From contig CANOTP010000001.1 in assembly GCA_947570135.1 (NCBI GenBank), forward strand, positions 186,001 through 250,000: 64,000 nucleotides of DNA, read 5' to 3'. The position numbers were made by a program, and so were the translations under genes. A model generated the notes under the pieces. It searched no databases. It was not told the DNA's origin and saw only the letters and a program-made list of their open reading frames with translations. Below, piece by piece: positions 53,945 through 57,549 of the stretch. The stretch is from an uncultured Candidatus Melainabacteria bacterium. Its GTDB lineage: Bacteria > Cyanobacteriota > Vampirovibrionia > Gastranaerophilales > Gastranaerophilaceae. The first letter of the stretch is position 1. Each line of letters begins with the position of its first letter.

Positions 53945-54193
53945 ATGAGATTAGATAAGTTTTTAAAAGTATCAAGATTAATAAAAAGACGTACTGTTGC
54001 GAACGAAGTGTCAGATATGGGCAGGGTTTTTATTAATGATAACCCCGCAAAACCGGCTAAACAAATTAAAGAAAATGATATTATCACAATTGAATATGCA
54101 AACCGTACTGTTAAGGCAAAAGTTCTAAAAGTACCGACAGGTAACGTTAGCATTCAGGAATCTTCGACTTTATATGAGTTGTTATCAGATTAG
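53945..54193 (+). CDS. rqcP: S4-domain RNA-binding protein, RqcP/Hsp15 type
   Basis: 82 residues consisting of an S4 domain: MRLDKFLKVSRLIKRRTVAN, then DMGRVFINDNPAKPAKQIKE. RqcP/Hsp15 bind stalled 50S subunits carrying peptidyl-tRNA in ribosome rescue. TGTTAAAAT (extended -10 form) ends nine bases before the ATG and there is no ribosome site, so a leaderless message is likely. The stop directly abuts the stop of the opposing pilin. Confidence 0.85.
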   Translation: MRLDKFLKVSRLIKRRTVANEVSDMGRVFINDNPAKPAKQIKENDIITIEYANRTVKAKVLKVPTGNVSIQESSTLYELLSD

Positions 54194-55013
54194 TTATTTA
54201 CATTTACGTTTATTTTTGTAACTTAAATCTGAACAGTATTGGTAATCAAGATTTCCAGTTTCAAGTACCCATCCTGCACAAGAGCCTGCGGATCCTATAT
54301 CTTGCATGCAAGATTCTTTGAATCTGTGCCAATATGAGGCGTTTTCATCTGCAATATTACCAATTGGAGATACTCCGTCTTGAAATATTTTAAATCCGAA
54401 TAAATCTCTATTGTTAGTGTTTGGACCGCTTAAGCCGTTTATGTCAACTAGTAATATTCCGCAGTGATAATAAAATCTACCGGCTCCGGTTAAGTCTTTT
54501 GAAGCTTTACACCAATTTTCTGAATAGTTATCTCCTGCATAAATGCTAAAATATAATATAGTTCCGTCTTTTAATGTGTAGGCTGTTGTGTAATTATTGT
54601 TAGCTCCTAAATAAAAATATTTTGATTTAATAGTTCTATACTTGTATTTTGTTTGTACTTTTAACTTTTGTATATTTAAATATCTTGAAAGTACTTCAGG
54701 AATTGCTTTTTGGCAACTTTCCAAGTTTCCGGAATGAAATGTTGAAGCATCACACCACATGTCAACAGTTCCTTCTTCTTCTACAGCTTGTTGAAAAGCT
54801 TGGTTTAATACTGCGTAAGTTTTTAATAGTTTAGTGTATGCTGTCCTATCATAATTTTTCTGTAATAAACCTGGAATTGTTAAAGCTGCAACAACTCCGA
54901 TGATTCCAAGTGTTATTAAAATCTCTGCTAATGTAAATGCCTGAAAGCTAATTGCAGTACGGGTTTTTGCTCTACCCCCCCCCTAAAGTGCGCTCTATGA
55001 TTGGGTTTTGCAT
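54194..55013 (-). pseudogene. Prepilin-like gene switched out of frame by a poly-G run (likely phase-variable)
   Basis: AGAGGAG precedes ATG 55013, which opens MQNPIIERTLGGG and stops at TAG 54972 because a run of nine G lies in frame. With eight (or eleven) G the frame continues RAKTRTAISFQAFTLAEILI through the whole pilin to 54194, an open frame of about 270 residues with no other interruption. The C-domain carries many cysteines (MWCDAS, WCKASKD, CGILLVDINGLSGPN). The gene is OFF as sequenced. I interpret it as a contingency locus. Confidence 0.8.
54975..54983 (-). repeat. Poly-G tract of nine in a pilin leader
   Basis: Nine C on the plus strand, that is G9 in the coding strand, codons 11-13 of the pilin leader. 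It is the longest G/C mononucleotide run I noticed in this AT-rich window. Confidence 0.9.
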
Positions 55014-55160
55014 AATGTTCTCCTCTTGCGTTTTATTATTACATAATATTTTTTTTGAGTAAATTAGTTTTAAGAAATGTAACAACTTAAATCTTTTCTG
55101 AAATAATGATTTCCAAAAATACTTTATTAAAATATAAGAGAGTATAACGGAGAGCATATT

Positions 55161-55466
55161 ATGAATAACAGAATTGATGGCGCAGGTAGAATTAATAATG
55201 ATATTAAGATTAACTTAACAGGTATAAAAGATAATGTAAAAACAACCGTAAACAGCACATTCGGTGACGGTTTTGCCGTTAAAGATACGGGGTTTGTTTC
55301 TGTCGATTCAAGGTTTCAGAGTTTAGCTGCCAAGTTTGATTTTGAAGCTCCGAAATATCCGAAAGGCGGATTTGCTCAGTTTAATCCTACAGAATCTGAT
55401 TATCAGACGATGAAACATTTAGACGGTGTTTTAGATTGCCCAGAACAACAATATTGTGAAACTTAG
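55161..55466 (+). CDS. Hypothetical protein
   Basis: 101 residues, soluble, Asn/Asp/Gly-rich with no signal peptide or motif (starts MNNRIDGAGRINNDIKINLT, ends CPEQQYCET). Divergent from the phase-variable pilin with 147 bases between starts. GGAGAG precedes the ATG. Function unknown. Confidence 0.6.
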   Translation: MNNRIDGAGRINNDIKINLTGIKDNVKTTVNSTFGDGFAVKDTGFVSVDSRFQSLAAKFDFEAPKYPKGGFAQFNPTESDYQTMKHLDGVLDCPEQQYCET

Positions 55467-56763: not shown

Positions 56764-56796
56764 TTTGTGGTAAAAATTTTAAGAAAGGAAGCGGTT

Positions 56797-57549
56797 GTGG
56801 GAAAAGTAAGAGGTTTTACATTGGCAGAAACATTAATTACTCTTGGTGTTATTGGTGTTGTGTCGGCATTAACCATACCAAGTTTAATGCATGCCTATAA
56901 AAAACATCTTATTGAAACAAGGTTAAAATATACGGTAGCTGCGCTTTCTAATTTAGCCAGACAGGTTCAGGATGAAGAAGGTTCCTTTCAGACTATTTAT
57001 CAAGGAATTCCTGATACAGGAAATCTTAACGACAGAAGTGTAGCTTTTCATAAGATTCTTCTAAAATATATTAAAGCTGCTCCTTGTTCATCAATTAAGT
57101 CTTATGATGCCAGAATATCTCAGAGGCAATGTATGACTGGGGCTTCGAAAAATTTCTCTTAGTGGCAGGGGATAGTCAGTGGTGAAAAATTGGTGTTACC
57201 TAACGGGATAGGTTTTGCTTTTTACAATATGGATACTACGGGTAATATTATACCCGTAGATATTGATTTGGGCATATCTTCACATAAAATGATTTACGGG
57301 GTTGATTATTTTAAACTTATTCTTGTTCCAGACGGGCAAATTAAGGCTGTAAATAAAGACGGTTCAAATTATCATTTTAAATGCTCTTCAACGTTTAGAG
57401 GTTCAGACAATGAAGTTATTACAAATGTTCGTGAACGTAGTGAAGACCCGGGCAGAGATGATTATCAGGGATATTATGCGACATATTGTGCAGCATTGAT
57501 TGAATGTAACGGGTGGAAAATTCCTAAAGATTATCCTATTAAATTTTAG
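56797..57549 (+). pseudogene. Prepilin-like gene with an in-frame amber codon
   Basis: GAAAGGA precedes GTG 56797 (GKVRGFTLAETLITLGVIG). The frame runs 121 codons to TAG 57160-57162, then continues in the same frame (WQGIVSGEKLVLPNGIGFAF) to GWKIPKDYPIKF and a stop at 57547. Apart from the single TAG it is a complete pilin of about 250 residues. CAG to TAG is the simplest origin. The two halves are not separate genes, since the second has no ribosome site and begins mid-domain. Confidence 0.82.

Follow-up and report, generated by a model that had tools for sequence, protein, structure and literature searches.

A poly-G tract in the leader of a prepilin gene as a probable phase-variation switch in a Gastranaerophilaceae genome

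The window analysed here, a stretch of 64,000 nucleotides from an uncultured Candidatus Melainabacteria bacterium, carries on its minus strand a prepilin gene that is out of frame as sequenced (54194..55013; ATG at 55013, stop at 54194). A Shine-Dalgarno-like GAGGAG (55020..55025, minus strand) lies 7-12 nt upstream of this ATG, and the leader that follows encodes MQNPIIERTL, then a run of nine G, then a TAG in the frame of the ATG. The run, which reads as nine consecutive C at positions 54975-54983 of the plus strand and hence as G9 on the coding strand, is the proposed slipped-strand switch. With nine G the ATG frame gives MQNPIIERTLGGG-stop, so that translation ends after a 13-codon leader ORF (55013-54972, minus strand). 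Downstream on the same strand lies the class III (prepilin) signal and N-methylation core QAFTLAEILITLGIIGVVAALTIP (54878..54943). Two genes on the plus strand provide context for comparison with other genomes, namely an S4-domain-like RNA-binding protein (53945..54193), a conserved neighbour that establishes synteny and is 90% and 89% identical at the corresponding loci L155 and L156, and a hypothetical protein (55161..55466) that synteny comparison showed to be conserved at L155. A neighbouring pilin gene within the window (56767-57549, plus strand), which has no poly-G tract, is split by a single in-frame TAG at approximately 57160-57162, with both halves otherwise open.

The body of the pilin gene is intact. 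Its frame (P0001) extends for 262 amino acids from the tract onwards and is free of stops down to position 54194, while directly 5' of the tract the same frame contains a TAG. No ATG, GTG or TTG was found in the body frame of this gene between the pre-tract TAG and the FTLAE core, and because of this and the TAG itself the body has no means of restarting. With eight rather than nine G, the ATG at 55013 joins a single open frame of 272 codons. An initial annotation had proposed that G9 places the start codon out of frame, that G8 would restore about 270 residues and that the body is otherwise undamaged, and all three claims held. It had also named two observations that would count against a switch, a usable downstream start, and G9 fixed in all reads and strains together with stops gathering in the downstream frame; in the single assembly available for this species, neither such a start nor such stops were found. 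The tract is the only run of seven or more G or C in the window, where all other such runs are at most six long, and the dinucleotide content predicts approximately 0.03 runs of nine or more per window.

The encoded protein shows the features of a class III signal, with a leader, a (G/A)FTLxE motif and a hydrophobic helix (AFTLAEILITLGIIGVVAALTIP). Its match to the prepilin motif PF07963 falls below the curated cut-off (E=0.0019 when the genome was scanned; as a protein it scored 16.3 bits, where 21.2 are required), with a core sequence that is nonetheless typical, and most of its paralogues pass. We therefore regard it as a type IV pilin-like prepilin, an inference from sequence alone, as assembly into a pilus or pseudopilus has not been demonstrated. 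On the same inferential basis, prepilin peptidase would remove the leader segment that contains the tract, and since the tract precedes the peptidase site the mature pilin should be untouched by the length of the tract or the resulting glycine stretch.

What the initial annotation missed is that about 33 pilin genes of this genome share the arrangement and that the trait extends across the family. The source genome (G000; 1.90 Mb in 16 contigs, 99.9% complete) belongs to the Gastranaerophilaceae, a family of non-photosynthetic cyanobacteria, and contains 111 matches to PF07963. Searching the genome for G8 returned 54 overlapping matches, which collapsed into 39 distinct runs of at least eight G after two had been dropped as the same tract at overlapping contig ends, compared with approximately five expected by chance. 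Prepilin leaders hold 33 of these 39 runs, and the six others are close to the chance expectation of roughly five. Thus the position that is poly-G in the window gene is also poly-G in 32 other leaders of the genome. The 33 tracts lie approximately 29-30 nt 3' of a Shine-Dalgarno sequence and ATG, directly before FTLAE-type pilin cores; one of them (C4:30725) has the leader without an in-frame pilin core, and two are at contig ends with the body lying off the contig. A typical leader of this genome reads ATGAAAAAGCAGACTATAGTTAGAATTTC-G8-TAACTTTTTAAGCTCC and would be in frame with G9, so that most copies are a single G short of ON. In nearly all copies the body frame stays open for approximately 190-290 codons. 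In two cases (C9:32060 and C3:225992) the leader is ruined, by a stop codon or by interruption of the tract as GGGCGGGG, yet the body is intact, and body intactness alone is therefore no proof of expression.

Some prepilin leaders were found to carry inserts. Palindromic repeat-like inserts, which translate as ...VIPDLLRNLS or NLIQDLS..., lie in frame between the tract and the pilin core, where they lengthen the leader and leave the frame open (for example C1:334142, C4:107644 and C15:148 in the source genome, and loci L210, L212 and L217). At C2:46584, C3:208412, C1:267681, C9:21355 and C4:23925 of the source genome, a partial FTLAE-like motif precedes a short insert (GATHVTLLP...) and a second FTLAE core, an arrangement that resembles insertion of a cassette into the signal motif.

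Syntenic orthologues of the window gene are present in two other species of the same genus, bounded on one side by the S4-domain protein and a phosphoesterase and on the other by L27/L21 or the same hypothetical protein. The orthologue in G014 (L155) is 59% identical, with G10 in a 27-nt leader, and that in G044 (L156/L271) is 55% identical, with G9 in a 31-nt leader; both are OFF with intact bodies. Tract lengths in the three genes are thus G9, G10 and G9, while the leaders have diverged in sequence and length, and a tract that persists as its surroundings change is what would be expected from selection on the tract. The public record for G014 (JAMPCZ) is titled Muribaculaceae, and a whole-genome search assigned it to the genus of the Gastranaerophilaceae genome studied here. 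Elsewhere in the genus, about two dozen pilins in G001 have leaders ending G(9-12)CACCGTTAAAGCTCTCC, and nine pilins in G025 have leaders ending G(9-15)TAAAAGCC. Scanning the family for at least eight G followed 2-32 nt later by a prepilin core gave matches in 33 of 146 genomes and in 15 of the 41 genera sampled, and the reversed control pattern gave none. The flanks of the tract vary by species, whereas the G run and its position are constant.

Two broader descriptions of the tract were considered and rejected. A universal DNA element, TTTC-Gn-TAACCYTTWAARGCYT, is real in approximately 11 of 46 genomes of the genus, but other species have other flanks, leaving the G tract as the constant. A conserved RNA hairpin, GGG-GTAA-CCC, was not supported, as single folds were inconsistent and species with GnCACCG or GnTAAAAGCC have the poly-G run without it.

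The poly-G DNA motif also occurs outside pilin genes. It is found in the leaders or signal peptides of large secreted proteins (L112, L113, L118, L131, L226, L237, L244, L262, L270, L272 and L276), with lengths of G9 to G12, and there the TTTC-Gn-TAACCYTTWAARGCYT element is read in a different frame from that used in pilins, as TLKALS rather than NLLRL. Among ten secreted proteins four are in the ON state, and some match Chlamydia PMP repeats (Chlam_PMP). At L119/L254, L121 and L128 the motif lies near the 3' ends of genes or before genes in apparent surface-sugar (surface-glycan) synthesis loci, which gave a weak MptE-like match and, in one case, contain what we take to be the start of an acylneuraminate cytidylyltransferase-like gene.

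Pilin bodies bear the mark of purifying constraint despite being out of frame. Cross-species pilin pairs, each member out of frame in its own genome, gave dN/dS values of approximately 0.05-0.25 at dS of approximately 0.7-2.5, and it follows that the proteins are used at times. These data bear on one alternative, namely ordinary decay of the gene or a homopolymer assembly error. In its favour, an assembler could miscount a G9 run, and the frame is broken. Against it stand the 33 loci in one genome with the tract at a conserved position, the retention of the tract across species, and the intact, selected bodies with low dN/dS. We consider decay or error very unlikely, and largely refuted.

Leaders and bodies have different histories. 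Whole pilin bodies can be matched across species at 75-88% identity. By comparison, leader identity between unrelated pilins of one species averages 0.78 (0.89 in G001), compared to 0.66 between orthologue-like pilins of different species and 0.65 between unrelated pilins of different species. Two leaders of one species thus resemble each other more closely than do the leaders of orthologues, which indicates concerted evolution of leaders within each species, with the bodies tracking descent. We infer that recombination, by copying leaders, is the likely cause.

Such a pattern could also be expected if the OFF copies served mainly as silent cassettes that donate sequence to other pilin loci by recombination, as pilS does in Neisseria, with the shared leaders representing recombination tracts. 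This reading is supported by the greater likeness of leaders within species, by the many OFF copies, and by the copies that combine ruined leaders with intact bodies. However, nearly every copy has its own Shine-Dalgarno sequence and ATG at a fixed distance, replacement of the leader sequence has not removed the tract, and the bodies can be matched whole between species at the identities given above. We regard silent cassettes as an unlikely main function, although it is possible that such a role operates alongside phase variation.

Further support for phase variation comes from differences in tract length between close copies. Leaders from the same genome that differ by only 0-5 mismatches in the 60 flanking bases carry unequal runs, with lengths of 8 and 9 in the source genome, 9, 10 and 12 in G010, and 8, 9 and 10 in G014. 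All tract lengths are consensus values from single assemblies, mostly MAGs, without reads. Two contig pairs of the source genome, C2/C15 and C15/C5, share an overlap of exactly 55 bases that ends at a tract and involves no further contig; the MutS2-type gene on C15 is single-copy in each genome. These 55-nt joins, which lie at two tracts other than that of the window gene, suggest G8/G9 mixtures, since a k=55 assembly graph that could not resolve the two lengths would show such a trace, although a repeat might also account for it. Loss of mismatch repair was rejected as a cause of length change in view of the presence of MutL and two MutS-family genes in essentially all members of the genus. 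Hypermutable Campylobacter lack MutS and MutL, and in this respect the presence of both here counts against the phase-variation reading.

To describe the coding states of the tracts, we compiled 96 pilin loci with a clear ATG and body, drawn from the genus of the window gene together with one locus of another genus. Only five were ON; two of these come from the same locus, which contains a scaffold gap, and another has a truncated body. The remaining 91 were OFF; 54 of them would come into frame by gaining one G and 37 by losing one, and both directions of shift are often needed within one genome (G000, G014 and G044). Start codons of any kind in the body frame were absent from 63 of 71 OFF loci with short leaders. 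Against the one third of ON loci expected if the three frames were equally frequent, the excess of OFF gives p=2.7e-11, a value that is too small owing to shared descent. All eight loci of G105 were likewise OFF. In G303, a genome of genus g24, near-identical leaders were ON with G10 (n=5) and OFF with G11 (n=4) or G9 (n=1), while a further G10 with a shorter leader was OFF and obeyed the same frame rule. This mixture is the expected snapshot of phase variation and confirms the assumed start and frame. Since five of the 11 loci in G303 are ON, the OFF excess is not universal. Where it does occur, its combination with one dominant length per genome weighs against the switch model unless OFF is selected for, leaders were copied recently, or mutation is slow.

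An alternative reading of the OFF excess is that transcriptional slippage or ribosomal frameshifting on the G run yields some in-frame product from OFF alleles, such that low constant expression is the aim and genomic length is not a switch. The strength of the OFF excess in the genus, the uniform lengths within genomes and the selection acting on pilin bodies all speak for it. On the other hand, the OFF alleles need shifts in both directions (54 by one G more, 37 by one fewer), often in the same genome, truly in-frame alleles exist and reach five of 11 in G303, and near-identical leaders are unequal in length. A single programmed frameshift was rejected as the main explanation because of the two-way shift requirement together with the in-frame alleles, and slippage or frameshifting more generally appears unlikely. 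Phase variation through tract length remains the preferred reading.

The tracts are also unevenly distributed between strands. In the source genome, 28 poly-G pilins lie on the plus strand and only one, the window gene, on the minus strand, compared with 33 and 49, respectively, for the other pilins (p=3e-8). Where sampled, contigs of this genome are G-rich on the plus strand, and nearly all sampled contigs appear to be so oriented. With the gene itself excluded from the calculation, 27 of 28 tracts in G014 lie on the locally G-rich strand; in G044 the figure is five of seven, and the bias is not significant. The runs therefore tend towards the strand that is usually leading, a correlation only, and any role of this orientation in slippage is speculative.

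The locus shows those defining features of SSR contingency loci that can be judged from assembled sequence. Its G9 reaches the length thresholds given for G tracts, which are at least seven in Campylobacter (PMC6321876) and at least nine in Neisseria (PMC5953494); gain or loss of a single G switches the frame between open and closed, without an alternative start; tracts occur above chance and are concentrated in surface genes (33 of 39); and tract length differs between homologues and close copies. We therefore conclude that the window gene is very likely (probability approximately 0.85) a contingency, or phase-variable, locus with translational ON/OFF control through poly-G length. The reading of the gene as phase-variable, as first proposed in the initial annotation, is supported as the best explanation, with the reservations that switching itself has not been observed and polymorphism at this tract has not been shown; switching in growing cells, surface display and benefit are all inferred. 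In the proposed mechanism, the G run in the coding part of the cleaved leader would change length through slipped-strand mispairing at replication, and a change of one G would link the Shine-Dalgarno sequence and ATG to the pilin body or cut that link, giving ON with G8 or G11 and OFF with G9. A repertoire of approximately 33 pilin genes, mostly OFF in the sampled population, may then lead different cells to display different pilins, with evasion of immunity or phage, or diversity in adhesion, as the putative benefit.

Several features of this arrangement recall known systems. The phase-variable pilC of Neisseria has a G run of 9-20 inside its reading frame (PMC5953494) and resembles the present genes in that a type IV pilus gene contains poly-G within its coding sequence and is set ON or OFF by the frame. 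The G run of pilC falls in the part encoding the signal peptide. In contrast, PilC is a pilus-associated protein encoded in two copies, whereas here the run is found in the prepilin leaders of tens of genes for the pilin-like subunits themselves. As in the Campylobacter phasome described with PhasomeIt (PMC6321876), a small, AT-rich gut genome contains many tracts of at least 7-8 G, most in coding frames and mostly 9-10 long. Campylobacter tracts are spread over many unrelated genes, largely glycan and surface genes; here, by contrast, a single gene family with a common leader accounts for nearly all of them, and the genome encodes MutS and MutL. The opa genes of Neisseria number about 11 (PMC3745409) and use CTTCT repeats (PMC5953494), and the vlhA/pMGA genes of Mycoplasma use GAA repeats. 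Both resemble the present family in having many paralogues that are switched individually by a repeat close to the 5' end, and differ from it in repeat type, protein family and phylum; in both, few copies are expressed at once, a number that is unknown here. Finally, pmpG of Chlamydia, a polymorphic membrane protein gene with poly-G, has been proposed as a contingency locus (PMC4488443), and the secreted relatives with poly-G leaders described above match the Chlam_PMP repeat. This likeness is at the level of Pfam and confined to some non-pilin relatives, while the window gene encodes a pilin. In the open-access literature searched, we found no earlier report of phase variation or poly-G tracts of this kind in Melainabacteria, Gastranaerophilales or Cyanobacteria. 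What is new relative to the known systems is the dedication to pilins, the location of the tract in a cleaved leader, the copy number, the species-wide homogenisation of leaders, and the lineage.

A bolder reading extends the conclusion to the whole family. Gut Melainabacteria would each possess an antigenic repertoire of tens of poly-G-switched pilins, with a leader module homogenised per species apart from the bodies, placed almost always on the leading strand of replication, and with nearly all copies held OFF so that few are displayed. We put this forward tentatively, judging the odds to lie slightly against it. A shared leader module that turns over apart from the gene bodies is in itself an unusual evolutionary pattern. 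The way in which pilin genes of this lineage are annotated would be affected if the switches are real, as many of these genes would otherwise be called pseudogenes. Most known cases of poly-G phase variation come from pathogens; if our reading is true, a commensal gut lineage runs stochastic surface variation at the scale of the Campylobacter phasome, clade-wide and dedicated to pilins, and pilus variation by commensals against phage, IgA or competitors would become testable.
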